DNA of 31,297 nt from a virus. Position 1 is the first letter of the stretch. Each line of letters begins with the position of its first letter. The translations under genes and the position numbers were made by a program. Shown piece after piece: positions 1-18,108 of this stretch. The notes beneath the pieces were generated by a model. It made no database searches and was not told where the DNA came from. It saw nothing but the letters and a program-made list of their open reading frames with translations. Location: positions 1-31,297 of the IMG/VR virus record IMGVR_UViG_3300043540_000402. One strand, given 5' to 3'.

Positions 1-66
1 AGCATAATGCTAATATTGATACTGTCATATCAAAAAATGATAATAGATGCAAGCAAAAAATGAAAT

Positions 67-102
67 TCGAATCGAATTGATCGAATCGAATTGAATCGAA
101 TC
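67..102. repeat. 14-bp tandem repeat
   Basis: Two perfect tandem copies of TCGAATCGAATTGA (67-80 and 81-94) are followed by a partial copy, ATCGAATC. The tract is built from CGAAT words. I see no gene around it, and its role is unknown; it lies at the outer edge of the putative origin region. Confidence 0.7.
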
Positions 103-570
103 TTCAGACGACAAACGAAAAAGCTTGTCAAACGATTCTAAGGCCATTTAAGCGCCAAAATTCATTGAGCCATACGTTTCACCTTGCCATATCAGAAAAA
201 CCGCTTAAAAAGCTTCTCACGCTATTTGAACACGATAAAATAAAACAAACATAATCCCCCCATATACATCATAAAAATGAGGATAATATCCAACTTTCTC
301 AATTTATCCCCGTTCCACAAAAAATAAACTCTCCACAATCCACAAAAAGCACAGATATCCTCCATATATATAAAATTTGTTTATCCCACAGATGTTTATC
401 CAACTTTTACCTATCCCCCAAAAACCAAAATTATCCCCAAAAAACAGTATTCAATTTTCCAAATGTGGTTCCGGCGTTTGCCGATTAAGGACAAAATTTT
501 GATTTTCCCAAAACTTTATCCACGGATTTTTAGGGTAGGATATCCTAAATGAGGATCATTCAGTGTTTGT
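103..570. other. AT-rich non-coding region with DnaA-box-like words
   Basis: I see no convincing gene here. From about 300 to 525 there are several + strand words close to the DnaA box (TTATCCACA): TTATCCACG near 517, TTATCCCACA near 381, and TTATCCCC or TTATCCAAC near 304, 397 and 430. A 12-bp palindrome, TAGGATATCCTA, lies at 536-547. AT-rich DNA with DnaA-like words next to the iterons that follow is the usual make-up of a plasmid-type origin. None of the boxes is a perfect match, so DnaA binding is inference. Confidence 0.35.
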
Positions 571-809
571 ATATCCGTTCGCTGATTGCATATCCGATTC
601 GGAAACAGGATGTCTATTCAGCGAACGGATATACATTCGCTGAACGCATATCCTATTCGTGAACGGGATGTCCTCTTTGTGAACGGGATGTCCATTTAGT
701 GAACGGGATGTCCTCTTTGTGAACGGGATGTCCATTTAGTGAACGAAACGTCCTCTTTGTGAACGGGATATCCATTCGCTGAATGGATATCCAATTTGTG
801 ACGTTTCGT
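571..809. repeat. Iteron array, candidate replication origin
   Basis: Nine direct repeats of 19-20 bp run head to tail from 623 to 799, starting at 623, 642, 661, 681, 701, 721, 741, 761 and 781. The central units read GAACGGGATGTCC followed by CTCTTTGT or ATTTAGT in alternation, which gives a 40-bp higher-order period. The outer units are diverged. An inverted half-site, ATATCCGTTC (571-580), mirrors GAACGGATAT (623-632). ACGAAACGTC (743-752) is mirrored by GACGTTTCGT (800-809). Direct repeats of about 20 bp spaced two helical turns apart, with an inverted half-copy, are characteristic of iteron origins bound by a plasmid Rep initiator. No classical Rep gene is visible in the window. A transcriptional operator array is the main alternative. 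Confidence 0.7.
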
Positions 810-930
810 CCTATTTTTCCCAAAGTCGATTTTTCCCAAAGCTGTTTGGCATATTTCGATTCTGCTTTGCCAAAAACTGCTGTTTGCTGAATCTGTCTTC
901 AATTGGATATAAGACGGTATCATTTTTCCC

Positions 931-959
931 TTGACCTATTGAAAAAAACGATGTATAGA
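931..959 (+). promoter_or_regulatory. Sigma70-type promoter for the 1101 gene
   Basis: TTGACC (931-936) is separated by exactly 17 bp from TATAGA (954-959). It lies about 140 bp upstream of the start codon at 1101, leaving a long structured leader. The nearby repeated TTTTTCCCAAAG words (about 813-840) could be operator sequences. Confidence 0.6.
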
Positions 960-1006
960 GGAATCAAACAGTATATATACGGTCTTTGATAATCGATGGG
1001 TTTTGG

Positions 1007-1074
1007 TTTTTCTTGTGGGAATTTTTCCTTCCTTTTTTCCCACAAGAAAAAAATAATCGGAAAAAGGAAGGAAA
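1007..1074 (+). promoter_or_regulatory. Structured mRNA leader, possible pseudoknot
   Basis: TTTTTCTTGTGGGAA (1007-1021) pairs perfectly over 15 bp with TTCCCACAAGAAAAA (1037-1051). The loop between them contains TTTTCCTTCCTTTTT (1023-1037), which is a perfect 15-nt complement of AAAAAGGAAGGAAAA (1060-1074) just upstream of the ribosome site at 1088-1093. The loop-to-downstream pairing makes an H-type pseudoknot, or two competing helices, possible. It probably controls transcription read-through or translation of the 1101 gene; the mechanism is inference. Confidence 0.5.
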
Positions 1075-1100
1075 ATCAAATACATATAAGGAGAAGAGCA

Positions 1101-1601
1101 ATGAAAAAGGAAATGGCAAAGGAACAAGGAAAAGAAACAGAACAACAAAAAATGGCAAGGGAAAAGTTCCTTGCAACGCTTGAGCGGAAAGCCAGAAAGC
1201 AATTTCTGGCTGATACGAAAGAATATGAACGTTGCATTTATCTGCAGACCACAAAGAAAGAAATGGAACTGATAAAAGAGAAGATGCAAACGTTAGAAAA
1301 GCGCTTGCGAAGATTAGGTACTTCATCGACAACGTCAACAACGTCAACAAAGTCTATTTCATCGACATCTTCAACGATAGACTTTAAGTCTATCGCTCAA
1401 GCCATGAAGGGTGAGAAAAAACCCAAGGAATTGGGTGAGAAGGAACGCAAGGTGTACCAGAAGGTACATTCCTATTCAACATGTTTCAAGTCTGAAGCAT
1501 GGGGACTCAATGAATTGAGTCCTTCGAATATTTCCGCTCTTGAGGGGTGGAAAAAATCAACCGTTAGGACGTATTGGGAACAAATACATCCTTTGCTGTA
1601 G
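1101..1601 (+). CDS. Unknown coiled-coil protein with C-terminal helix-turn-helix-like segment
   Basis: The protein has 166 residues and I do not recognise its family. ATG 1101 is chosen because AAGGAG (1088-1093) sits at the right distance; an in-frame ATG at 996 lies inside the structured leader. Residues 1-73 are highly charged and helical, probably a coiled coil. A Ser/Thr-rich linker follows at about 74-92. The C-terminal part ends in a segment containing NISALEGWKKSTVRTYW, which resembles a helix-turn-helix recognition unit. It lies between an iteron array and a parS site and has its own promoter and structured leader. A role as replication initiator, partition accessory or local repressor is therefore plausible, but this rests on position and a weak HTH resemblance. 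No catalytic motif is visible. A hairpin (1610-1645) closes the transcript. Confidence 0.7.
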   Translation: MKKEMAKEQGKETEQQKMAREKFLATLERKARKQFLADTKEYERCIYLQTTKKEMELIKEKMQTLEKRLRRLGTSSTTSTTSTKSISSTSSTIDFKSIAQAMKGEKKPKELGEKERKVYQKVHSYSTCFKSEAWGLNELSPSNISALEGWKKSTVRTYWEQIHPLL

Positions 1602-1609
1602 GTCTCGAT

Positions 1610-1645
1610 AACATCTGGCAGGCGATAGGAAACCTGCCAGATGTT
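1610..1645 (+). terminator. Hairpin terminator after the 1101 gene
   Basis: AACATCTGGCAGG (1610-1622) and CCTGCCAGATGTT (1633-1645) form a perfect 13-bp stem with a 10-nt loop, 8 nt after the stop codon. There is no clean T-run, so termination may be weak or the hairpin may act in another way. Its 3' arm overlaps the first bases of the parS palindrome. Confidence 0.55.
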
Positions 1646-1657
1646 TCACGTGAAACA
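1642..1657. other. parS: Canonical parS centromere site (ParB-binding)
   Basis: TGTTTCACGTGAAACA is a perfect 16-bp palindrome and an exact match to the bacterial chromosomal parS consensus TGTTNCACGTGAAACA, the site loaded by ParB-family CTP-dependent clamps. It lies between two hairpins (1610-1645 and 1657-1691). A chance match of this quality in a window this long is expected roughly 3 times in 100,000 under equal base frequencies. No parA or parB gene is in the window, so the binding protein would be supplied by the host or by phage genes elsewhere. Confidence 0.85.
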
Positions 1658-1691
1658 TGGGATAACCAATAAAATCGGTGGGTTATCCCAT
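1657..1691. repeat. Inverted repeat abutting parS
   Basis: ATGGGATAACC (1657-1667) pairs with GGTTATCCCAT (1681-1691) over 11 bp around a 13-nt loop. It begins on the last base of parS, so parS is bracketed by hairpins. It could be a terminator for the opposite strand or part of a partition complex. Confidence 0.5.
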
Positions 1692-1750
1692 ATCCCCCAC
1701 CCGTCGGATGTTGGGATAGTTTTTTGTTGGCAAAATCGGCACCTCACCAC

Positions 1751-2074
1751 AAAATTTTTTGTAGATTTTGGATGGATTTTGCAAATTTTGGATGGATTTT
1801 TTAAATGGTACCCCACCATAAAATTTTTTGTGGATTTTGGATGGATTGGGAAAATTGGATAAACAGACAAAAGTGGATAAATAGACAAAATTTTTTGTAG
1901 ATTTTGGATGGATTGGGAAAATTGGATATATGGAGAAAACGATGCCTCCCCACAAAATTTTTTGTGGATTTTGGATGGATTGGTCATTTCTCCCATAAAA
2001 TTTTTTGTGGATTTTGAATGGATAGGGTAAATTGGATAAATAGACAAAATTTTTTGTGGATTTTGGATGGATTG
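1751..2074. repeat. Six dispersed copies of a 28-bp AT-rich repeat
   Basis: A unit starting AAAATTTTTTGTGGATTTTG and continuing GATGGATT recurs at 1751, 1820, 1887, 1954, 1997 and 2046, with spacings of 69, 67, 67, 43 and 49 bp. Between copies, variants of AAATTGGATAAATAGACA recur. The array lies just to the right of parS. Open frames across it are repeat artefacts. It may be a protein-binding or spreading array or simply repeat-expanded DNA. From the end of the array to about 2340 I see only T-rich DNA without a gene. Confidence 0.7.
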
Positions 2075-2339
2075 GTATATACTGGACAAAGCATTTATTT
2101 GTGGGATATATCAGAAGTTGGATAATATAGTTTGTATATATGTATATGATGTGGATATTTATATTTCTTTGAATCAGTGTCTATATTTGTTCCTTACGTT
2201 TGTTTTTGATTCCTATGTATTTTAGTTCTTGGATTCTTTTGTTCTTGGATTCTTTTATTTTGAAATTATTTGTGTCCTTCCTTGTTTCTGTTTATCCTTC
2301 CTTGTTTTTTCTTATCCTTTTAGTGTTTATTTTTGAAAT

Positions 2340-2982
2340 TATTTATCCAACTTGTTTGATTTTTATTTATCCAACTCATTTGATTTTTGTGAAAAATACA
2401 ATTTTTGGATTTTGATTTTTCTGTATATAGGAGCAGATTTTTTTATTTTGTGTAAAATCAGATGGTTAATTTTTTGGGGAATTTTCTGTGGAATCTGACA
2501 ATCTGTGTGGATACAGTATTTTCGGTTGGATAATTGGAGGAAAATTGTATTATTTGATTGGATAACGATGAATACTGGGTTTGCTGGAGTCAATGTTTAT
2601 CGAGGTGGATAAATGAATGTCTGTTTGGTGTTATTTTTTGATTTTTCCCTCGCCCCATGTGCAGAGAGTGAATGGTGCTTGAATGAAATCCTTAAAAATC
2701 AAACGGTTACAATTTTAGAGAATTTTGATGGAATTTTATCAAATTTTTTTGTTTTTTGTTTGTTTGAAATTTTTGTTTTGCATAAAAATCAAACAGTTAC
2801 AAATCCGATTAAAATCTGATTGTTTGATTTTTTAATTTTTGATAAATTTTGATTTATCCAACTATCCAACTTTTTATTTTATCCAACTTTTTGTTGGATA
2901 AATATTTATCCAACAAGGATTTATCCAAAAAGGATTTATCCAACAAGGAGGATAAATATTTTGGTTTTGTTGGATATAAATA
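2340..2982. repeat. TTATCCAAC repeat cluster 1, non-coding
   Basis: This gene-free, T-rich stretch has scattered TTATCCAAC and GTTGGATAA words that become dense from 2858. A perfect inverted pair, TTTATCCAAC (2878-2887) and GTTGGATAAA (2893-2902), encloses a T5 loop. AAAAATCAAACGGTTACAA (2694-2712) recurs with one change at 2784-2802, and GTTTGATTTTTT (2822-2833) is its partial inverse. Short open frames here have no plausible starts or protein-like composition. Confidence 0.6.
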
Positions 2983-3011
2983 TTGACTTTGCAATATGTA
3001 TAATATATTTT
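2983..3011 (+). promoter_or_regulatory. Promoter for the 3043 gene
   Basis: TTGACT (2983-2988) is followed at 17 bp by TATTTT (3006-3011); TATAAT at 2999-3004 is an overlapping alternative -10. The arrangement and the shared ATATGTATA word resemble the promoter ahead of the terminase genes (5103-5131), which suggests common control. Confidence 0.5.
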
Positions 3012-3042
3012 ATCCTTAAAAACAAGAAAGGAGGGATTCAAT

Positions 3043-3384
3043 ATGACTGTTGTTTATGTGGATGTAATCAAAAAATTAAGTTTGGAGAAACTTGTTCGAA
3101 CATATAGAGAAAACTATCCATGCAATCCTGAACTTATGCAGTTGTTGGATGAGTTGGATTATTTGATTGCAAATCCAACTCAACACAGGATTGGTCCATA
3201 TACTCCACCAAAAAACTCATCGGATGGAAAAAAACAAAAAAAGAGGAGAAAACGTAAATACAAGGAGGAGGATAATGTCACGATCAGGTATAATAAAACA
3301 CAAACAGGACGTGGACGCAATGTTTTCAAAAATTTGAAGACAGGATCAGAGGACAATAGATTGGATTTTATCCAAAACACTTGA
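3043..3384 (+). CDS. Small basic protein of unknown function
   Basis: The protein has 113 residues and I do not recognise it. The start is well supported: AAAGGAGGG lies directly upstream (from about 3027) and a promoter lies at 2983-3011. Residues 1-50 look like a small alpha-helical domain (SLEKLVRTYRENYPCNPELM). A very basic tract, KKQKKRRKRKYK, follows at about residues 63-74, and then a polar tail. Strong basicity suggests nucleic-acid binding. It is the only credible gene in about 3.6 kb of repeats, so it may act on those repeats or be a small regulator. A second strong ribosome site (AAGGAGGAGG, 3262-3271) lies inside the gene, ahead of an out-of-frame ATG at 3275 with a 20-codon frame. 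A hairpin at 3391 may end the transcript. Confidence 0.6.
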   Translation: MTVVYVDVIKKLSLEKLVRTYRENYPCNPELMQLLDELDYLIANPTQHRIGPYTPPKNSSDGKKQKKRRKRKYKEEDNVTIRYNKTQTGRGRNVFKNLKTGSEDNRLDFIQNT

Positions 3385-3390
3385 TCGAGG

Positions 3391-3417
3391 ATTTATCCAA
3401 CTTTTTGTTGGATAAAT
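3391..3417. terminator. Palindromic hairpin after the 3043 gene
   Basis: ATTTATCCAAC (3391-3401), loop TTTTT, and GTTGGATAAAT (3407-3417) make a perfect 11-bp stem, 6 nt after the stop codon. The same element recurs around 2878 and 5016. It may be a bidirectional terminator or a binding site for a dimeric protein; it is too AT-rich to be a confident intrinsic terminator. Confidence 0.4.
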
Positions 3418-3795
3418 ATTTTGTTTATCCAACAAAGTTTATTTATCCAACTTTTTATTTATCCAACAAAGTATTTATCCAATGACAAAATACTTTGTTT
3501 TATCCAACAAATGGGATAAACGGATTTGTTTTTATCCAACTATCCAATTGAAAAACAAATCAGTTTATCCAAGGACAAGAAAAACATTTATCCAAGGATA
3601 AAACAAAGTATTTATCCAATGGACGAAATAATTTATTTATCCAACTATTTGTTGGATGAATTTTTTGTTTATCCATTGGATAAAACAAAGTATTTATCCA
3701 AGTACAAACTGATTTGTTTATCCAACTATATAAATATAAAATAATTTGTTTATCCAACTATCCAATTAAATAACAAATCAGTTTATCCAACCCAG
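3418..3795. repeat. TTATCCAAC repeat cluster 2, non-coding
   Basis: TTTATCCAA followed by C, T or G recurs every 15-40 bp in this stretch, mostly in one orientation, with a few GTTGGATAA copies. It also contains TATCCAACTATCCAA doublets near 3536, 3640 and 3755. No coding sequence is credible: the open frames simply translate the repeat. Confidence 0.65.
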
Positions 3796-3920
3796 GGATA
3801 AATCCTTGATCAAGGATAAAGCAAGTAAGGACCGAGGATAAAGCAAGTAAGGACCGAGGATAAAGCAAGTAAGGACCGAGGATAAAGCAAGTAAGGACCG
3901 AGGATAAATCCTTGATCAAG
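3796..3920. repeat. Four perfect 22-bp tandem repeats with flanking 19-bp direct repeats
   Basis: A 22-bp unit (starting AGGATAAAGCAAG, ending TAAGGACCG) is repeated perfectly at 3813, 3835, 3857 and 3879, with a partial fifth copy at 3901-3908. The array is bounded by two identical copies of GGATAAATCCTTGATCAAG (3796-3814 and 3902-3920), each containing CTTGATCAAG, a 10-bp palindrome. The unit length and lack of divergence match a second iteron or centromere-type protein-binding array. Confidence 0.75.
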
Positions 3921-3979
3921 TAATCCTGTACATTTCTTGGTCCTATCTATTCCTTTGCTAAATAAAACGAAATCTCCCC

Positions 3980-4046
3980 GAAAACCTGGAGAAACAAAGT
4001 ATAGGCTTGCTCCGCAAGCCGTATACTGCAGTTTCGTAAGGTTTTC
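3980..4046 (+). other. Long imperfect hairpin A
   Basis: Nested pairings are GAAAACCT (3980-3987) with AGGTTTTC (4039-4046), GAAAC (3991-3995) with GTTTC (4031-4035), GTATA (3999-4003) with TATAC (4022-4026), and GGCTTGC (4004-4010) with GCAAGCC (4014-4020) around a TCC loop. This 67-nt rod has symmetric internal loops, as in a folded RNA or a single-stranded DNA hairpin. No gene overlaps it credibly. Confidence 0.6.
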
Positions 4047-4047
4047 C

Positions 4048-4124
4048 GTTTTTGTGCGATGGTTGTTATGAGCAAAGGCTTGCGAAGCAAGCCTGTAGCT
4101 ACATAACAACCTGAGCACAAAAAC
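4048..4124 (+). other. Long imperfect hairpin B
   Basis: Nested pairings are GTTTTTGTGC (4048-4057) with GCACAAAAAC (4115-4124), GGTTGTTATG (4061-4070) with CATAACAACC (4102-4111), and AGGCTTGC (4076-4083) with GCAAGCCT (4087-4094) around a GAA loop. It begins 2 nt after hairpin A ends and has the same GGCTTGC-N3-GCAAGCC tip. Together the two rods look like a paired structural element, either RNA or DNA. Confidence 0.6.
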
Positions 4125-4136
4125 TTTCTGCAAGTG

Positions 4137-4199
4137 ATGTTTCAATTTGGAACAGGATAGATTTTGTAATGTTTCAATTTGGAACAGGATAGATTTTGT
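4137..4199. repeat. 31-bp direct repeat, two copies
   Basis: A 31-bp unit beginning ATGTTTCAATTTGGAACAGG is present perfectly at 4137-4167 and 4169-4199, separated by one base. The spacing is too short for a CRISPR spacer. Function unknown. Confidence 0.7.
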
Positions 4200-4218
4200 T
4201 GGATTGAATCAAAATTTC

Positions 4219-4321
4219 AAAATTTTTTCGAAAAAATTTTTCCGCGACAAATGAAATAATATCCAAATCCTCATATTAAATTTCTAACGAAATTTAATAT
4301 TCATATTTAGATATTATTTCA
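4219..4321. repeat. Palindrome and long AT-rich hairpin
   Basis: A perfect 22-bp palindrome centred on TTCGAA spans 4219-4240. It is followed by a 70-nt hairpin: TGAAATAATATC (4252-4263) with GATATTATTTCA (4310-4321), AAAT with ATTT, and ATATTAAATTT (4273-4283) with AAATTTAATAT (4290-4300) around CTAACG. With hairpins A and B this makes a run of cruciform-capable sequences within 340 bp. Confidence 0.55.
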
Positions 4322-4362
4322 TTCAGGAGGATCTTGTTATTAGTATCTAATATCCAGGACTT

Positions 4363-4452
4363 ACGCGCGCGCGCGAGAGTACTTGCGCGTGAGTACTTGC
4401 GCGAGTACTCGTGCGCGCGTATATATTTGCGCGAGTACTCGTGCGCGCGTAT
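4363..4452. repeat. CG-rich alternating purine-pyrimidine block
   Basis: In strongly AT-rich surroundings, this block is made of GCGCGC runs and four AGTACT palindromes. A 26-bp unit (starting TTGCGCGAGTACTCG) is duplicated at 4397-4422 and 4427-4452. The left half is an approximate inverse of the right half. Alternating CG/GT steps favour Z-DNA. From 4453 to about 4617 I see no gene, only a short inverted pair, GGCTCT and AGAGCC, near 4549-4572. Confidence 0.6.
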
Positions 4453-4561
4453 TAAAGATCGATTTTAAGGCACCTAATAGACCGAATAAGCCAAACCATA
4501 TCTGATCTGGTGTGATTCTCTTCCCCACCATGATAATTTTGATCCTTGAGGCTCTCAGTTC

Positions 4562-4601
4562 GTTTTAGAGCCATTCCTGAATCAGTTTTCGGACCAAAAA
4601 C
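4562..4601 (+). other. Solitary type II CRISPR-repeat-like sequence (tentative)
   Basis: The 40-nt stretch begins GTTTTAGAGC, identical to the first 10 nt of the Streptococcus pyogenes-type II-A repeat, and ends GGACCAAAAAC, close to its GGTCCCAAAAC end. The middle does not align well, the length is 40 rather than 36, and there is only one copy. Terminal GTTTT and AAAAC are complementary, as in type II repeats. It could be coincidence. Confidence 0.2.
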
Positions 4602-4617
4602 GGGGGTGTCTCGAACC

Positions 4618-5036
4618 AAGTTGGATAAATATGGAAATAATTTGTTTTATCCAACAAAATTTGTTTACCCAACTATCCAACAAAATTTTGTTGGATAAAT
4701 ATTTTGTTTATCCAACTATCCAACTTTTGATTTATCCAGCAAAATTCTATTGAACAAATCAAAAGTTGGATAAATAAATTTCACTTGATGAAACTTTGTT
4801 GGATAAATCAAAGTTGGATAAAATATTTGTATATTTATCCAACCAAATTCTATTGAAAATAATTTATTTATCCAACAAAATTTATTTATACAACTATCCA
4901 ACAGAATTTATCCAACAAAATTCTGTTGGATAAATATTTTGTTTATCCAATTATCCAACAAATTATTTTATCAAATTATTTAATTATCCAACAAAATATT
5001 TATCCAACTTTGATTTATCCAACTTTTTGTTGGATA
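4618..5036. repeat. TTATCCAAC repeat cluster 3, non-coding
   Basis: This is the densest cluster, with TTATCCAAC and GTTGGATAA in both orientations. Composite palindromes include a perfect 24-bp one at 4674-4697, a 12-bp stem at 4906-4935 (ATTTATCCAACA with TGTTGGATAAAT), and TATCCAAC-T5-GTTGGATA at 5016-5036. No gene is credible. The cluster ends just before the terminase promoter. Confidence 0.65.
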
Positions 5037-5102
5037 TATCCACTAATTTTTAATTAAATTTATCCTTTTTTCATTGATTTTGATAAAAATGTTGAAAATC
5101 CT

Positions 5103-5174
5103 TTGACTTTTCCATGAAATATGTATATTTTGTACCAAAATTATGGAAAATTTATCGAAATTTTCCATAATTTT
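5103..5174 (+). promoter_or_regulatory. Terminase-operon promoter with 17-bp hairpin operator
   Basis: TTGACT (5103-5108) is followed at 17 bp by TATTTT (5126-5131). Immediately downstream, a perfect 17-bp inverted repeat (5137-5153 and 5158-5174) encloses an ATCG loop. TTTTCCAT occurs at 5108-5115 (overlapping the -35 region) and at 5161-5168, and its inverse ATGGAAAA at 5143-5150. This is the layout of a repressor or activator operator, or of a transcript hairpin that modulates expression. It is the probable entry point for the packaging and head operon. Confidence 0.6.
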
Positions 5175-5208
5175 GTTGATAATTTCAACCTAAAATAGGA
5201 CTATGTCC

Positions 5209-5760: not shown

Positions 5761-7675
5761 GGACAACATAAATGATGATTTATCCAATGAAACGTTTTCA
5801 AAGGATTTATCCAATGAAATTTCTGCTTCGAGAATTGCATCCTACAGAAATGGATGGGAAGGATTTGTAAAATGGTGTGAAGATTTTGTTTATATTCCAA
5901 TTTACCAAGAAGGATTTGATTCTGCTATTTGGAGTCCTCTTGGAAATCTTCCAAAAACTCCGAATCCAAAAACTGGACGAAGTCCACATTTCTTTTGGAC
6001 AAAAATTAAAGAAGCTCTTCATGAACCTCTCCAGATGGAAAAAGGACGATTTAGGTATCGTCTGATAATTTTGTGTTGGGAAAGAGGAGAGGCTAAAAGT
6101 CTCGTAGCATGTCTTATCCAACTTTGGAAATTTTTTAATTGGCCTCGTCAACAGATTATGCTTGGAGCAAATTCCAAGGATCAGGTCAAGTTTGTCCATT
6201 TTGATATTATGCGGGATATTATCCTTAATTCTCCAATATTGTTGGATATGATTGGTGGACAAAAGAACATTCAAGAAAAAGAATTGCGTCTTACTGATTC
6301 CAATGGAAACATAAAAAGCATTATTCGATCTATATCCTCCTTTTCTGGTATTGTATCCAACATTACAGGATACACATTTTCAGAAATCTTTGATATGAAA
6401 AATCCAAAGTTTTTCATCCAACTTGATGGTTCTATCCGTAATATTCCGAATGCTCTTGGTGTAATCGACTCCACTGTATCCACCAAAGATCATATCCTCT
6501 ACAAACTTTATACTGGATGGTTAGCACAAACAACCAAGACAGTTTATTTCTCCTATCGATATAGTTTGAGAGGATTACAGGAAGATTATTGGAACCCAAA
6601 TATGGATCAAGACCAATTGGAGGATTATCGATCTAAATTTCCATTTGGAGAATTTGAAAGATATTTCCAAAATCTTTGGGAAGCAGGAGGACAAAAGGTT
6701 TTTTCTGACGAAATGGTGGATGAAATAGGTTTCATTGGTGCGGATGGATATGAATTTAATCATGAAACTGTTGTATCCATACTTCAGGATAGAAAAGAGG
6801 CAATGATAGCCATATCCGATCTTCAAAACAAGATAATGGATATATCCAATCAAAACAAAACTATTTCTATATTTCAAAACAAAATTAAAAATTGCGAAGC
6901 TCGTTTAAATCCAATGGATAAATTATATCGTCTTTGTGATGATTTTAGGCAACCGAGACCTATGCGTTTAGATGATCTTCTAACGCTCTCAGACGTGTTT
7001 AAAACAGACTTTGCTATTTTGGCAGGTCTCGATATGGCTGATCCATTTGCAAAGCATATTCGGGCTCGTAGTGTCGTTACAGTGATTGCTAAGGGATTGA
7101 TCAATAGCAAAGAAAATACACATATCGTTGCAAGCATGGATTTATTGAATCCACGTTATATTTATTTTGTGGTTGGAATATTTGCTGTTCCTGATAATTC
7201 TCTTGACCTTGCAAAGGATTATTTGGAAGAGATAAACTGGGCGTTGGATGGAATAGACGTTCTGTGTAGTGAACGATATGGTTCCTGGGATATGGTGAAT
7301 TGGGGAGAGGAAAAAGGAATTTTGTTTGAACCAGTATTTCCAACCTACGATAAACAGAGGGAGGCTTTCAAAGAACTTTTTATTGCTATCCAACAAGGAC
7401 GATTTAAATCACCAAAGGTTTTTGTTCCAGGAACAAAAGGGGATGATATTTTGAGGGAAGAACTTTTGATGTTTGATCACGATCAAAATAAAAAATGGTT
7501 TGGAAGTCCAGAGAAAAATGATTCTCATGGAGTACAGGATGATACTATTTTTTCCTTGATATGGTGTTTGTATGGAGGACGAAACATAACTTCTGATCAT
7601 TTTCGAAGACGAAAACCAAATGAGAAGGATTTTGGAGCTTTTTATAAAGGAGAACCTGGATACGGAACCTATTGA
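5732..7675 (+). CDS. terL: Terminase large subunit (packaging ATPase and nuclease)
   Basis: The 647-residue protein powers DNA translocation into the prohead and cuts the genome. ATG 5732 is chosen because GAGGGAGG (5719-5726) precedes it by 5 nt; a TTG at 5717 is in frame but less likely. The ATPase domain shows a deviant Walker A, WERGEAKS, at about residues 116-123, a Walker B-like region with SEIFD at about 217-221, and a coupling-like GVIDSTVS at about 243-250. The C-terminal nuclease has an RNase H-like first acidic motif, GLDMADP (about 432-438), and a late acidic pair, VQDD (about 601-604), as in the family. An insert of about 70 residues (about 340-410), rich in Lys, Asn and Ile, separates the two domains. 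The N-terminus is built of repeated DLSNE codons that carry the TTATCCAA word. Confidence 0.93.
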   Translation: MSRLLKRKSKDNINDDLSNETFSKDLSNEISASRIASYRNGWEGFVKWCEDFVYIPIYQEGFDSAIWSPLGNLPKTPNPKTGRSPHFFWTKIKEALHEPLQMEKGRFRYRLIILCWERGEAKSLVACLIQLWKFFNWPRQQIMLGANSKDQVKFVHFDIMRDIILNSPILLDMIGGQKNIQEKELRLTDSNGNIKSIIRSISSFSGIVSNITGYTFSEIFDMKNPKFFIQLDGSIRNIPNALGVIDSTVSTKDHILYKLYTGWLAQTTKTVYFSYRYSLRGLQEDYWNPNMDQDQLEDYRSKFPFGEFERYFQNLWEAGGQKVFSDEMVDEIGFIGADGYEFNHETVVSILQDRKEAMIAISDLQNKIMDISNQNKTISIFQNKIKNCEARLNPMDKLYRLCDDFRQPRPMRLDDLLTLSDVFKTDFAILAGLDMADPFAKHIRARSVVTVIAKGLINSKENTHIVASMDLLNPRYIYFVVGIFAVPDNSLDLAKDYLEEINWALDGIDVLCSERYGSWDMVNWGEEKGILFEPVFPTYDKQREAFKELFIAIQQGRFKSPKVFVPGTKGDDILREELLMFDHDQNKKWFGSPEKNDSHGVQDDTIFSLIWCLYGGRNITSDHFRRRKPNEKDFGAFYKGEPGYGTY

Positions 7676-7751: not shown

Positions 7752-9407
7752 ATGGCTGAAGAATTTAATGAACTATCCCCTCAAGAATTTGCTATGCCCT
7801 GGCAATACTCCACAGATGGTTATGAATCTGATCCTGATGGATTCAGCATGATTGACCGTAGTGGAACAGATGATTCTGAATCTCGAAGCACGCTACAAGA
7901 TGAGTGTTGGAAGAAATTCTGTAAAAATCCTCAGATGAATACTTCTGTACGAGGATTGGTTGGACGATTAACCGGATTTGATTTTGGTGTAACGTCTGAT
8001 ATTAAAGAGATTCGGGAGGTGATTGAAGAAATTGAATATGATCCAAGAAATAAACTTTATAGTTTATGGCCGTCCTTTGTTGGACGAGCAAATATTGAAG
8101 GAGAGCTTTTCCTTTGTTTATCCTGCCATGCTGATGGATTCATCGAAGTTGATTTTATTGATCCTGGAACCATAAAAGGCTGTGGATCAGATGATTCTGG
8201 AATTATTTTTCATCCAACTAAGACACACTTCCCTCTATTTTACAACATTGAAATATCCTCAGAAGAACCCATATTTTCCAACAAAAAATATGTCCAAATT
8301 CCAAGTATAAATATAGCACGTTATCCTGAACTTATTTCTATAGCAAAAAATAGTACATACTGGGATGATTCTAATGGAGATTATTGCAAAAACAAAAACA
8401 AAAAATTTAAACAGTTTGGTGGATATTTTCGTTTTATTATTTCTTGGAATAGAGGATTTGTCCAAAAAAGAAATTTTTCATTTTTGAGAACTACATTAGA
8501 ATGGATGAATCATTACGAAAATCTCAAAAAATTTGAAATTGATCACAAAAAATCTGCTGGAAGTTATTTATGGATATTTAATTTTGAGGATATAAAAGCA
8601 TTCAAACAATGGGCAGCTTTATCTGATGAAGAAAGAAAGAAAACTGGAATTTTAGCAAAGAAAACACCTGGAGGTTCTCTTATCCTTCCTCCTGGTATTA
8701 AAGTTGATGTAAAATCTCCAACCTTGCCAGCAATATCCAATACCGATACTGATATTATGCAAATGATTGCGTCAGGATTGAATGAACCAGAGGATATTTT
8801 AACAGGAACATCGTCAGGAACATACGCATCTGTAAAAGCATCTCGTGGACCAATGTCCGATAGAACTTCAGATGAAGTAGCATACTTTGAAAGATTTTTG
8901 CGACATGAGTTTTGGGGAAATATTTTCTTTTTGAAATCCAAACTCACAAAATTTCCTGAAGTTTTTGCTGTAAAAGAAGCAGTGGATTTCAATGACAAGA
9001 AAGAACCTATTTTCAAGAAGGTAAAAAGAAAACCAGAATTTTTAATTGGGATTTCTTTTCCAATTTCTGAAACTATTGACCTTGAAACTCGTGCTAAAGC
9101 ATTACTCGGTGTAAAACATGGAAATATGTCCGCATCTCTCGGTATCCCAAATTCTGAAATTGCAAGAAGACTTGGAATTGGTGGATATGGATATTTGAGA
9201 TTGAAAAAAGCTACAGAGGATGCACGTTATCCTGATCTTTTGATTGAAGCTGACTTTGCTGCTGCATCGGTAAATAATCCAAAAGATAAAACACAAACAG
9301 CGGATCAAAATGACCAAGAACAATCCACTCCTGGAAATAATGAAGAACAATCCACTGTCGAAAAAAACAAAACCCAACCAGCAAAAAAGAAATTGGTTAA
9401 AAAATAA
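7752..9407 (+). CDS. Portal protein
   Basis: The 551-residue protein forms the dodecameric ring at one capsid vertex, through which DNA enters and to which the neck attaches. Support comes from length, position after the large terminase and before the protease, and typical portal segments: an N-terminal part around NTSVRGLVGRLTGF, a central wing-like region with DFIDPGTIKG, and a C-terminal conserved stretch, MIASGLNEPEDILTG followed by YASVKAS (about residues 336-360), corresponding to the region before the clip and crown helices. The last 45 residues are a Gln/Glu/Thr/Lys-rich tail ending AKKKLVKK. The start has GTGAGG upstream. The gene is followed at once by an IS605-like mini-element rather than by the next head gene. 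Confidence 0.9.
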   Translation: MAEEFNELSPQEFAMPWQYSTDGYESDPDGFSMIDRSGTDDSESRSTLQDECWKKFCKNPQMNTSVRGLVGRLTGFDFGVTSDIKEIREVIEEIEYDPRNKLYSLWPSFVGRANIEGELFLCLSCHADGFIEVDFIDPGTIKGCGSDDSGIIFHPTKTHFPLFYNIEISSEEPIFSNKKYVQIPSINIARYPELISIAKNSTYWDDSNGDYCKNKNKKFKQFGGYFRFIISWNRGFVQKRNFSFLRTTLEWMNHYENLKKFEIDHKKSAGSYLWIFNFEDIKAFKQWAALSDEERKKTGILAKKTPGGSLILPPGIKVDVKSPTLPAISNTDTDIMQMIASGLNEPEDILTGTSSGTYASVKASRGPMSDRTSDEVAYFERFLRHEFWGNIFFLKSKLTKFPEVFAVKEAVDFNDKKEPIFKKVKRKPEFLIGISFPISETIDLETRAKALLGVKHGNMSASLGIPNSEIARRLGIGGYGYLRLKKATEDARYPDLLIEADFAAASVNNPKDKTQTADQNDQEQSTPGNNEEQSTVEKNKTQPAKKKLVKK

Positions 9408-9415
9408 TAATTGAC

Positions 9416-9584
9416 CAGAAGAAACGCCGTAAGACCCCTGACTTTAGACATAGGGATATAAGTCGAAAAAAAAGACTTGACATTATACATAAAACATGAT
9501 TAGTGTAGTCCAACTTGGGACTGGGGCTACAGTCCCTTGGCTCTGCCATAGAAGCCCCTGGCTTTAGTCGTGGGGAGTAGTCAC
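9416..9584 (+). mobile_element. IS200/IS605-family mini-element (copy 1), transposase-less
   Basis: This 169-bp sequence from CAGAAGAAACG to GTAGTCAC lies between portal and protease. Both ends carry related hairpins: CCCCTGACTTTAGACATAGG on the left and CCCCTGGCTTTAGTCGTGGG on the right, in the same orientation, as expected for ends recognised by a Y1 (HUH) transposase. Upstream flanking bases are TTGAC, a plausible target/TAM sequence. Inside are TTGACA (9477-9482) and TAGTGT (9501-9506) with an 18-bp spacer, then a hairpin GGGACT/AGTCCC (9517-9522, 9531-9536) and the right-end hairpin. In tnpB elements this 3' part is the omega-RNA scaffold. No tnpA or tnpB reading frame is present. It is about 80% identical to copy 2. 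Confidence 0.8.
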
Positions 9585-9656
9585 ATGAATTTCAAATGTC
9601 AAATTTCATAGTTTTTTGTAGTATTTATGAGTTTCCCAAATTTTGGGAGGATTACT

Positions 9657-14067: not shown

Positions 14068-16062
14068 ATGAAGAAAAAAGTTTTGATGGTTGGCGAGCAT
14101 CCATTTGGTTTTACTGGCAACAGTATGATGATGCTGTCAATACTTGAAAAATTAAATTTGTCTAAATACAATCCCATTATTTTTTGTCCTACAAATGTTC
14201 CCACCTATAATCCAACAACGACATTAAAAATAGTTCCAGATATTGTGTCCTCTGAAGAGGAAAAGGATGAATGGGGCAATAAAAAACTGGTTCAATTTTT
14301 AAGTAACGAAAAAACGGATGTTTTGTTGTTTGTTGGTATCGATTTTTGGCGTTATCTCAAAATTTTCCCTGATATTAAAAATCTAAAACGAGAAAATAAG
14401 TTCTATTTTTTAGGAATTATCCCATACGATATCCATTATGTGCGGAAAGAATGGATAGCTTTCTTAAAATTATTTGATCACATTGGATTTTATTCTGAGT
14501 TTGGATATAATTTAACAAAAGATATTTTACCCAACACATCACTATTTCGTCCTCCAATGATGAACATGGAGTTATTTCATCCAATAGACGAATCTCGAAA
14601 AATTAAATTGAAAAAAGAAATATTTCCTTTTCTTCCTGAGAATGGGTTTTTGTTTGGATGTGTTTGTGGAAATCAATTTCGAAAAGACCCTCAAACTACT
14701 CTTTTAGCTTTTAGAAAACTCATTGATATTAAAGACAATGTTTATTTTTATATGCATACATCATTGGATAATGGAGTGTATAATTTAGAACAATTTGTCA
14801 ATGATTTAGAATTTCCAAAAAATAAAGTTTTTTTCAAAGACCCACATACCAGACTACCTTTTAATTTGATGCCAAAACTCTATTCTATTTTTGATTGCTA
14901 TGTGAATTGCTCTCTTCAAGAAGGTTTGTCATGGACTGTGCTTCAATCTTTGTTGTGTGGTACTCCTGTTTTGATTTCTGATACAACTGCACATAAAGAT
15001 TTTAATGGACTTCCTGGAGTTGAGTATGTTGTTCCTGACAGAACTTGTTATATTCCAATTTATACAAGTAGTGGACAATCTTGGATAGAAACAAAAGGTT
15101 GTGACGAAAACAAAATCCTTGATGGAATGATCAAAGCTATTGATCATAAAACAAATAGTAATGAAATTTCTAATTCTGCTAAAAAATTTTATTGTCCTTC
15201 CAACATAAATGAGTTTTTAGGCAATATCGTCCAAGCCCCAAAGATTCAAAATGCTTTTGTGTTTGCACAACATTCATCGGCTGGTGATGTTCTAATGACA
15301 ACACGAAGTTTCAAGGCATTGAAAGAAAGACATCCAGATAAAAAATTTATCTATATGACACAGAAACAATACTTTGATATTTTAAAAAATAATCCTTATA
15401 TCGATTCATTGATTGATTGGGACGAATCTGTATTCAATAAATATGAAATTTGCTATAATCCACATGGAGATAGAATTTTGAAAGGCGAATTTAATAGTTT
15501 AGATGTGAAACTGTCTGATATATATCACAAACTATTAGGTGTAGAGCCAAATGATTTCTTTATCCATGAAGAATCAATCAATAATATCCAACTTCCAGAA
15601 CATTTTGTAATTATCCATTCATCTGGTCAGGAGAAATTTTATCGAACATATAAAAACATGAACCAAGTTGTAAAACGAATTCCATATCCAACTATTCAAA
15701 TTGGTTCATTGGATGATCTTTATTGTCCTAATGTAACACTTGATTTAAGAGAAAAACTCACATTTAATCAGACAGCATGGTTAATGAAACGAGCAAAAGC
15801 AGCTATTGTGATCGACTCCTTTCCATCCCATCTTGCAGGAGCTTTAGGAACTCCTGTCGTTGTACTTTATGGTCCTGCACCAGCACGAGTTACAGGTCCT
15901 GTAGGCGATCCATCAAAAATTAGAAATGTTGAACCTGATAAATTGAAATACTGTAAAAGACTTACAAATTGTTGGGGGCGTTTTAGAGGATGCAAAGAAC
16001 CTTGTATCGATAAACTGACGGTGGATGAAATAGTCAAATCATTTCAGGAATTGGTGGGATAA
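14068..16062 (+). CDS. Bifunctional glycosyltransferase, GT4-like plus GT9-like
   Basis: The 664-residue protein has a perfect AAAGGAGG site upstream. Residues 1 to about 390 look like a GT-B fold GT4 enzyme: a Gly-rich N-terminal EHPFGFTGNSMMML, GCVCGNQFRKDPQTTLLAF (about 197-215) and NCSLQEGLSWTVLQSLLCGT (280-299). In the last motif the family's E-x7-E pair is E285...Q293, so the second Glu is replaced. Residues about 395-664 resemble GT9 heptosyltransferases: HSSAGDVLMTTRSFKAL (402-418), FVIIHSSGQ, and IDSFPSHLAGALGTPVVVLY (582-601). It probably transfers sugars from activated donors to a virion protein or a host glycan; the acceptor is unknown. It is embedded between head and tail genes, which points to virion glycosylation or cargo gained by transfer. 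The DNA is more AT-rich than the capsid genes. Confidence 0.85.
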   Translation: MKKKVLMVGEHPFGFTGNSMMMLSILEKLNLSKYNPIIFCPTNVPTYNPTTTLKIVPDIVSSEEEKDEWGNKKLVQFLSNEKTDVLLFVGIDFWRYLKIFPDIKNLKRENKFYFLGIIPYDIHYVRKEWIAFLKLFDHIGFYSEFGYNLTKDILPNTSLFRPPMMNMELFHPIDESRKIKLKKEIFPFLPENGFLFGCVCGNQFRKDPQTTLLAFRKLIDIKDNVYFYMHTSLDNGVYNLEQFVNDLEFPKNKVFFKDPHTRLPFNLMPKLYSIFDCYVNCSLQEGLSWTVLQSLLCGTPVLISDTTAHKDFNGLPGVEYVVPDRTCYIPIYTSSGQSWIETKGCDENKILDGMIKAIDHKTNSNEISNSAKKFYCPSNINEFLGNIVQAPKIQNAFVFAQHSSAGDVLMTTRSFKALKERHPDKKFIYMTQKQYFDILKNNPYIDSLIDWDESVFNKYEICYNPHGDRILKGEFNSLDVKLSDIYHKLLGVEPNDFFIHEESINNIQLPEHFVIIHSSGQEKFYRTYKNMNQVVKRIPYPTIQIGSLDDLYCPNVTLDLREKLTFNQTAWLMKRAKAAIVIDSFPSHLAGALGTPVVVLYGPAPARVTGPVGDPSKIRNVEPDKLKYCKRLTNCWGRFRGCKEPCIDKLTVDEIVKSFQELVG

Positions 16063-17203: not shown

Positions 17204-17645
17204 TCCAACTTTGAAATCATCAAATTTTGTTTTTTCTATCAAAAAGCACTTGATTGAAAATTTGTATGATGCTGGTGGCATTGAGTTGATTTTTGATGAA
17301 TTTTTATCACCTCCAGATAATATTAAACAATGGATTTTTGTAGATTTTGGGTCGATTTCTCGCAATACAGTTTCGCAAATCAATCTCGATATCTATTGTG
17401 TTTCAAGGGAGGATTTTGAGAGTTTTGAATTATATCGTCTTGTAGATTTGGTATTGGGATGTTTTGATGATTCAACGACTACAGATGGAAAAAAGAGAAT
17501 CGCTTGTTATGACAGCACCAATCCAACTGACCCAATAGGTTATTTTTTGGTATTGGATGTAGATCAAAATCCGATTGCATTGGCAAAGCAGGATAATTCA
17601 AAATACATTGTTCTTACAATTTCCTTTCAGATTGCGACAAAATGA
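17196..17645 (+). CDS. Tail terminator protein (probable)
   Basis: The 149-residue protein is predicted alpha/beta with the layout of gpU-like tail terminators: an N-terminal helix, strands around QWIFVDFGSISRNTVSQINL and DIYCVSRED, a helix FELYRLVDLVLGCF, and C-terminal strands around YIVLTISFQIATK. GGAGG lies 8 nt before ATG 17196. Its place just before the tail tube gene fits. It would cap the tail tube after the tape-measure-defined length is reached and mediate head attachment. The stop overlaps the next start (ATGATGA). Confidence 0.75.
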   Translation: MLDPTLKSSNFVFSIKKHLIENLYDAGGIELIFDEFLSPPDNIKQWIFVDFGSISRNTVSQINLDIYCVSREDFESFELYRLVDLVLGCFDDSTTTDGKKRIACYDSTNPTDPIGYFLVLDVDQNPIALAKQDNSKYIVLTISFQIATK

Positions 17646-17857
17646 TGAAAGAAAAAAACTTTATTCTGTGCGAAAAATGTGGTAAACGTCTTATTGAGCG
17701 TATGGAAAATGGACTTTGGCATTTTGTTTTTGGAAAAAGTCAACAAGGATGCCAATACGTTCCAGTTGAGATGTATATCCATGGCAATGTAAAAATAAAA
17801 TGTCTGAGACGAGGTTGTGGTCATTGGAATGTATTAAATTTCTTTCCAAACACTTGA
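17642..17857 (+). CDS. Small Mu Com-like zinc-finger protein
   Basis: The protein has 71 residues with two cysteine pairs: CEKC (about residues 10-13) and CLRRGC (about 54-59). Cys37 and two His residues are nearby. The pattern, an N-terminal CxxC followed by KRLIERM and a C-terminal VKIKC...CGHWN segment, resembles phage Mu Com, a zinc-finger protein that binds mom mRNA and activates translation of the DNA-modification gene. Here it lies between the tail terminator and tail tube, with no mom-like gene visible. Translation appears coupled to the previous gene (ATGA overlap, no clear ribosome site). Nucleic-acid binding is likely; the target is unknown. Confidence 0.65.
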   Translation: MMKEKNFILCEKCGKRLIERMENGLWHFVFGKSQQGCQYVPVEMYIHGNVKIKCLRRGCGHWNVLNFFPNT

Positions 17858-17869
17858 TTTTTTATTTAT

Positions 17870-18034
17870 CAGAAGAAACGTCGTAAAACTCCTGACTTTA
17901 GACATGGGGATATAAGGCGAAAAAAACTTGACATTATACATGAATATGGTTAGTGTGGCTCCCCTTTGGACTGGGACTACAGTCCATTGGCTATGCTATA
18001 AAAGCCCCTGGCTTTAGCCGTGGGGAATAGTCAC
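17870..18034 (+). mobile_element. IS200/IS605-family mini-element (copy 2), transposase-less
   Basis: This 165-bp relative of copy 1 lies between the Com-like gene and the tail tube gene. It keeps the left hairpin (TCCTGACTTTAGACATGGGG), a promoter-like TTGACA (17928-17933) with TAGTGT (17951-17956) at 17 bp, the hairpin TGGACT/AGTCCA (17967-17972, 17981-17986) and the right-end hairpin with CCCC (18005-18008) and GGGG (18022-18025). Flanking upstream bases are TTTAT. No transposase or tnpB reading frame exists. Relative to copy 1, both arms of the middle hairpin change together, so the fold is preserved. Bases after GTCAC (18035 onward) would be the guide if this is transcribed as an omega-RNA. 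Confidence 0.8.
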
Positions 18035-18108
18035 GGATAATTAAGTACAATAGGATTTATCCTAAGAATGCTAACAGCCCCTTTTGTTTTAAATGAATGG
18101 AGGATTAT

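Follow-up and report, generated by a model that had tools for sequence, protein, structure and literature searches.

Gene-less IS200/IS605 mini-elements in a tailed phage as candidate carriers of omega-RNAs for a TnpB encoded elsewhere

The window, by which we mean the whole 31,297-base stretch analyzed, is an incomplete IMG/VR virus record (IMGVR_UViG_3300043540_000402) of a tailed phage whose terminase, portal, head-protease, major head protein, tail, and tape-measure genes lie on the + strand. It is the source record of two mini-elements, e1 and e2, which a first-pass annotation had placed in gaps of the structural operon in the same orientation; coordinates and strand were verified (Table 1). 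e1 lies between the portal gene, which ends at 9407, and the head-protease gene, and e2 lies between the ORF at 17642-17857 and the major tail gene starting at 18097. The record contains no further copies. The two elements had been described as about 80% identical; they are indeed similar, at a somewhat higher figure of 85% (blastn, E value of 2.7e-50). The left ends are mismatched at 5/49 positions and the AT-rich/promoter stretches at 5/45, with an additional 4-base gap; mismatches number 7/66 within the omega-RNA and 4/9 in the short spacer that precedes it. RNA folding of e1 and e2 was better than that of shuffled sequences (z-scores of -2.67 and -2.47). An Rfam search of the window gave no relevant match up to an E value of 1, with Rfam covering few TnpB RNA types; matches within 568-4778 were dismissed as miRNA models fitting palindromic AT-rich repeats. 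The gene-poor stretch at 1-5200 is dense in AT-rich repeats and palindromes based on TTTATCCAAC/GTTGGATAAA, with tandem units of 20 to 22 nt at 648-787 and 3808-3917 and GCGCGAGTACTCGTGC palindromes at 4371-4458, and is a possible origin or protein-binding region. Within the head-tail operon, positions 14068-16062 encode a protein of 664 aa that matches glycosyltransferase family 9 (heptosyltransferase) and is also group-1-like.

Table 1. Positions of the two mini-elements and their parts in the window
Feature	Position	Strand	Remark
Mini-element 1 (e1)	9416..9584	+	Complete, without ORF; site empty in L003 and L013
Target/TAM-like motif TTGAC, left of e1	9411..9415	+	First five bases of the TTGACA conserved in relatives
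Left-end imperfect hairpin, e1 (CCCCTGACTTTAGACATAGGG)	9435..9455	+	Left end common to L093-L098, L074, L076, L087, and L130
Promoter-like block, e1	9477..9506	+	TTGACA 9477-9482, 18-nt spacer, TAGTGT 9501-9506; conserved in e2 and L114
Omega-RNA stem 1, e1	9517..9536	+	9517-9522 / 9531-9536; loop 9523-9530
Pseudoknot 5' strand, e1 (GGCUAC)	9525..9530	+	Pairs with 9577-9582 (GUAGUC)
Right-end hairpin, e1 (CCCCTGGCTTTAGTCGTGGGG)	9555..9575	+	
Pseudoknot 3' strand, e1	9577..9582	+	Two nt upstream of the guide
Predicted guide, e1 (ATGAATTTCAAATGTCAAAT)	9585..9604	+	20/20 in empty relative L003
Mini-element 2 (e2)	17870..18034	+	Complete, without ORF; site empty in L013
Target/TAM-like motif TTTAT, left of e2	17865..17869	+	TTAY in other family members
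Left-end imperfect hairpin, e2	17889..17909	+	Same basis as the e1 left end
Promoter-like block, e2	17928..17956	+	TTGACA 17928-17933, 17-nt spacer, TAGTGT
Omega-RNA stem 1, e2	17967..17986	+	17967-17972 / 17981-17986; loop 17973-17980
Pseudoknot 5' strand, e2 (GACUAC)	17975..17980	+	5/6 pairs with 18027-18032 (AUAGUC)
Right-end hairpin, e2 (CCCCTGGCTTTAGCCGTGGGG)	18005..18025	+	
Pseudoknot 3' strand, e2	18027..18032	+	
Predicted guide, e2 (GGATAATTAAGTACAATAGG)	18035..18054	+	L013 has one extra T

A scan with the major head protein yielded 54 related loci. The relatives L003 and L013 are 96 to 97% identical to the window across thousands of bases; L013 lacks both e1 and e2, and L003 lacks e1 (the L003 locus stops short of site 2). 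The comparison with related phages that had been proposed for these sites thus revealed empty ones, and since the empty relatives are nearly identical to the window, e1 and e2 are insertions. In L003 and L013, as well as in more distant relatives (L004, L005, and L010), TTGACAG comes right after the portal stop codon, in a conserved spacer that may be a phage promoter. e1 starts immediately 3' of the TTGAC in this conserved motif and interrupts it; therefore, site 1 was ancestrally empty. Both elements have a target-like motif on their left and no target-site duplication, and compared to the empty relatives, site 1 is short of 22 bp (AGTAAATATATATTTATTGTAT) and site 2 of 10 bp (TTTTTGTTAT). 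Insertion with a target-site duplication was rejected because the duplication is absent. The missing stretches begin after TTGAC (e1) and TTTAT (e2) and finish with TGTAT and GTTAT, respectively, so that either small deletions were followed by a precise insertion or insertion at the right-hand motif was followed by loss of the left flank. A precise empty site 1 (TTGAC plus guide) was not found in viral contigs, and the approximately 54 phage relatives contained no IS605-type right ends. e1 and e2 are 15% apart, but the divergence of their flanks from the empty relatives is 3 to 4%, which makes two separate acquisitions from a diverse family the most likely origin. The gap of e2 holds another element in L041, where a probable HNH-type endonuclease ORF (14870-15520) sits between the homologue of ORF 17642 and the tail gene, behind a duplicated tail-gene start. 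The record of L041 (G011) also encodes an intact TnpB (L111, 1444-2661, - strand, 406-aa open frame) near the portal gene of this related phage; it was the one intact gene that a search of the relatives for TnpB gave, and it is not linked to e1 or e2.

Sub-terminal imperfect hairpins were present at both ends of e1 and of e2, and the same ends occur on TnpB elements. As neither contains an ORF, they are non-autonomous at most. The Y1 transposase TnpA (PF01797) is absent from the incomplete 31-kb record, and neither TnpB nor TnpA was found in this record or in those of L003 and L013; because the window record is incomplete, tnpA or tnpB could sit elsewhere in the phage. Absence of an ORF, IS605-type palindromes, and evidence of mobility are features that e1 and e2 share with gene-less IS605 elements of the type called palindrome-associated transposable elements (PATEs). 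The earlier assignment to transposable IS200/IS605 mini-elements is supported by the ends, by the near-identical relatives whose sites are empty, and by a related TnpB-bearing element, and we regard it as almost certain that e1 and e2 are mobile.

DNA similarity searches revealed no match in annotated phages and, in plasmids, a match solely to a TnpA element of Finegoldia, at its right end; neither set contained a full copy of e1 or e2. Exact right-end and left-end patterns had no match in viral contigs, and the middle-hairpin pattern led to a single contig of 131,684 bases from an unrelated phage (IMGVR_UViG_3300035180_002250, loci L114 and L130; here, the 131-kb phage). The matching block comprises left end, TTGACA block, and omega-RNA and is 84% (e1) and 87% (e2) identical over 163 to 167 nt. 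It directly precedes the gene for an intact, ISDra2-like TnpB of 378 aa, which is followed by a second omega-RNA that is 92% identical to e1 over 74 nt; e1 and this RNA at the tnpB 3' end are homologous. All three expected Pfam domains are present in the encoded protein (PF07282, PF01385; ISDra2 TnpB match at 6.6e-58), its RuvC motifs GIDMG, VVEDLS, and SRDVNAA are preserved, and it is apparently an active nuclease. The 131-kb phage likely carries the source family of e1 and e2. Its further elements of the left-end family are a second TnpB (L128) and a mini-element of ~180 bp (L129), besides an isolated left end (L127) and part of a right end; TnpA was not found in its record. Hence, of the related tnpA and tnpB that were to be sought in hosts, tnpB turned up in another phage and not in a host, and tnpA in neither phage record. 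The L114 element has omega-RNAs on both sides of tnpB. The upstream unit (reverse complement, 3742-3920; ~2424-2620 in L130) is flanked by two AACCACT repeats and immediately precedes the tnpB start codon, and its guide would run into the beginning of the element's own tnpB. It may be a mini-element that inserted after TGTAT in the 5' leader, one copy of the left end having been lost afterwards.

The left-end family, with TTAC or TTAT in front, was also detected in Anaerolineae, Sulfobacillus, Treponema, and Deltaproteobacteria genomes and in viral contigs. The genome scan gave no full copy and six loci that share just the left end. A host search of the Treponema family and samples of three phyla gave no close copy at cut-offs of 1e-9 to 1e-11, which exclude most left-end-only matches and render empty answers weak. 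The viral contig L072 (13 kb) combines the left-end family with TnpA, TnpB, and three minis: a TnpA-TnpB element at 1-1374 (- strand), its tnpB cut by the contig end, and nearly identical mini-elements of ~160 bp at 2240-2399, at 5815-5974, and from 13024 onward, with a stem 1 and a pseudoknot match. Contigs of a Treponema genome (L098, L099, and L105 in G025) break inside a left-end-family element after a TATACT-like -10, which suggests that the assembly failed to resolve a mini-element family present in many copies.

The internal promoter-like TTGACA reported for both elements is present in both; the accompanying -10, TAGTGT, is poor, with only 3/6 consensus matches, and a consensus promoter scan called no promoter in e1 or e2. 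TAGTGT ends 10 nt upstream of stem 1 in each element, and a transcript would thus begin approximately at the start of the omega-RNA, with no tnpB message in need of processing. The bases directly preceding stem 1 vary (GTCCAAC, GCTCCCC, and AACCAC), so that separate deletions, or a single deletion with later drift, gave the same layout.

Fourteen loci encode relatives of the L114 TnpB (51 to 70% identical apart from the source locus), and each of these 14 tnpB genes has an RNA of the same plan at its 3' end. We compared 15 omega-RNAs, namely, e1, e2, two from L114, and eleven from the TnpB relatives. All 15 have a 6-bp stem 1 enclosing the 8-nt loop GGGNNNAC, and loop bases 3 to 7 pair in every case with a strand finishing two bases upstream of the guide. 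The pseudoknot core occurs as GACUA/UAGUC, GAUUA/UAAUC (L134, L141, and L142), GAACA/UGUUC (L135), GACAA/UUGUC (L137), GGAUA/UAUUC (L138), and GGCUA/UAGCC (L143). Pairing was found in 75/75 cells of the five core pairs, compared to a mean of 66.2 and a maximum of 73 in 10,000 trials of row shuffling, which leaves relatedness in. An independent count gave 94.4% paired cells versus 73.0% after shuffling and 39 two-sided changes versus 10.9, with a score of 0.622 versus 0.192 (0/500 shuffles). Sliding of the partner strand, a control that keeps relatedness, left only 28.9 to 37.6% paired, and the changes were of several kinds. The topology is that of the ISDra2 TnpB cryo-EM structure, in which nucleotides -5 to -3 pair within the stem 1 loop (PMC10097598). 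e1 and e2 retain stem 1 (6/6 pairs each) and the pseudoknot (6/6 and 5/6 pairs).

The first-pass annotation, from which the pseudoknot was absent, had argued for selection from two hairpin changes. Stem 1, its middle hairpin, does read GGGACT/AGTCCC in e1 and TGGACT/AGTCCA in e2; the compensatory interpretation is weak, since the outermost pair is G.A in both copies of the 131-kb phage and e1 and e2 may each be one change away from G.A. The right-end change from G.T to G-C preserves the pair but is a single change. Covariation of the pseudoknot is much stronger than these hairpin changes, and the hairpins are not in decay. e1 and e2 very probably hold a complete omega-RNA scaffold. Since the same scaffold ends every related-family TnpB gene examined, the proposal that they are solitary omega-RNAs is well supported at the level of structure, by a complete stem 1, pseudoknot, right-end stem, and guide junction.

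The predicted guides were expected to begin at 9585 and 18035. Comparison to the empty relatives places the insertion boundaries at 9584/9585 and 18034/18035, exactly where the scaffold ends. The RNA would end in flank sequence, and its guide would therefore be specific for the empty site. Among the sequences compared, the guides match their own flanks and the corresponding site of the empty relatives; one other match was partial (16 nt) and without target motif. In L003, the full e1 guide match is preceded by TGTAT and not by a TTAY motif. In L013, TTAT precedes the e2 site, and the guide is interrupted by the extra T.

Because a promoter-like block and a complete scaffold are kept in both, each element looks like a minimal self-transcribed omega-RNA in a mini-transposon. 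The best explanation, to which we assign a probability of roughly 0.55, is that e1 and e2 are TnpB-deleted mini-elements with a self-transcribed omega-RNA and that a TnpB from elsewhere could cut the empty sites. Deletion of tnpB from a TnpB element of the type seen in the 131-kb phage would have left the left end, promoter region, complete omega-RNA of ~70 nt, and right end, and TnpA acting in trans would have moved two already diverged members of this non-autonomous IS200/IS605 family into the phage lineage, with insertion 3' of TTGAC and of TTTAT. From the TTGACA block, transcription would begin near stem 1 and cross the right end into the flank, with downstream phage sequence as the guide. 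A TnpB supplied in trans by a co-infecting phage or the host could then load the omega-RNA and cut genomes that have the target motif and flank but no element, so that element-bearing genomes would be favored; the outcome of such homing would be retention or drive with a borrowed nuclease. Whether the omega-RNAs of e1 and e2 are used by a TnpB in trans is, in our estimate, evenly balanced. It seems rather unlikely that solitary self-transcribed phage guide RNAs hijack the nuclease of other phages or of the host and cut element-free siblings at co-infection, as a split gene drive. IS605-type elements have been reported to displace empty plasmids in a TnpB gene drive (PMC11870625), and phage genomes present in many copies would offer similar conditions. 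Against the favored explanation, the promoter-like blocks have a poor -10 and are not called as promoters, the incomplete record has neither tnpA nor tnpB, the host search gave no close copy (weak, at its strict cut-offs), the empty relatives have no clean target motif plus guide at site 1 or site 2, and freshly inserted elements would appear intact even without selection in the phage.

The latter point leads to an account in which e1 and e2 are plain gene-less mini-elements after a recent tnpB deletion, with an omega-RNA that is neither transcribed nor used and is passively retained via its overlap with the right end. We consider this possible, if somewhat doubtful. The weak -10 and insertions that are recent relative to the 3 to 4% flank divergence would fit it, and gene-less IS605-derived elements that arose by core deletion are known from Haloquadratum (PMC3119063). 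However, stem 1 and the loop strand of the pseudoknot lie outside the right-end hairpin, yet they are complete in both 15%-diverged copies, and three unrelated minis (L072, L129, and L087) also retain stem 1 together with a four-pair pseudoknot match (GACA or GGCA with UGUC). Moreover, the deletion junction lies at the 5' end of the omega-RNA in e1, e2, and L114, whereas an element with a larger deletion should still be mobile.

Two further readings would give the elements a regulatory role. As promoter cassettes, e1 would have swapped the phage promoter before the protease gene for its own TTGACA block, and e1 does interrupt the TTGACAG that follows the portal stop in the five relatives named above, and the remainder of the spacer is gone; this is very unlikely, as the consensus scan calls neither the native nor the element promoter on that strand, no comparable promoter was seen at site 2, and it would be a single case. 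Even less probable is the earlier suggestion of guide RNAs for a TnpB-like repressor, i.e., a nuclease-dead, TldR-like protein acting on phage or host genes. Enterobacter prophages are known to carry a TldR together with its guide RNA (PMC13418256), and e1 is located upstream of the head-protease gene. This suggestion is not supported: the related TnpB keeps all RuvC (DED) motifs (the actual partner may be another TnpB), the guides match, among the sequences compared, just their own flanks and the empty-relative locus, the record has no TnpB-like gene, and the ends of the elements are still of the mobile type.

IS605 mini-elements and TnpB omega-RNAs are already known, and gene-less IS605 elements have long been described (PMC3119063). 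The fusion of a promoter to a minimal omega-RNA in phages is not known to have been described before. If the RNAs are made and loaded, TnpB guide and nuclease would be separable between genomes, and gene-less elements could in this way share the retention or drive effect that complete IS605 elements have in plasmids. e1 and e2 would then provide natural minimal TnpB guide scaffolds of ~70 nt with their own promoter, and drive-like competition of co-infecting phages would be testable with the sequences of e1, e2, and the L114 TnpB.

Altae-Tran et al. reportedly described stand-alone omega-RNA loci for IscB in 2021, and Meers et al. are said to have described gene-less IS605 elements in Geobacillus in 2023. 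In both cases, as in e1 and e2, the guide RNA stands apart from the nuclease gene; they reportedly differ from e1 and e2 in host, in nuclease family, and in the location in a phage. Virus-borne mini-CRISPR arrays, reportedly described by Medvedeva et al. in 2019, are comparable in that the virus holds the guide and the nuclease would come from the cell or another element, but they rely on CRISPR spacers and Cas proteins in place of a transposon omega-RNA and TnpB. Core-deleted PATEs of Haloquadratum walsbyi are terminal-only and 52 bp long (PMC3119063), whereas e1 and e2 keep the promoter-like block and a complete omega-RNA and are located in a tailed phage. With ISDra2-type elements (PMC10097598, PMC10278001), e1 and e2 share the right-end order of stem 1, pseudoknot, right-end stem, and flank guide. 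They differ from this type in the lack of tnpB, in a scaffold of ~70 nt compared to 116 nt in ISDra2, and in an omega-RNA that would arise from its own start and not by processing of the tnpB mRNA, which TnpB normally trims itself (PMC10278001).
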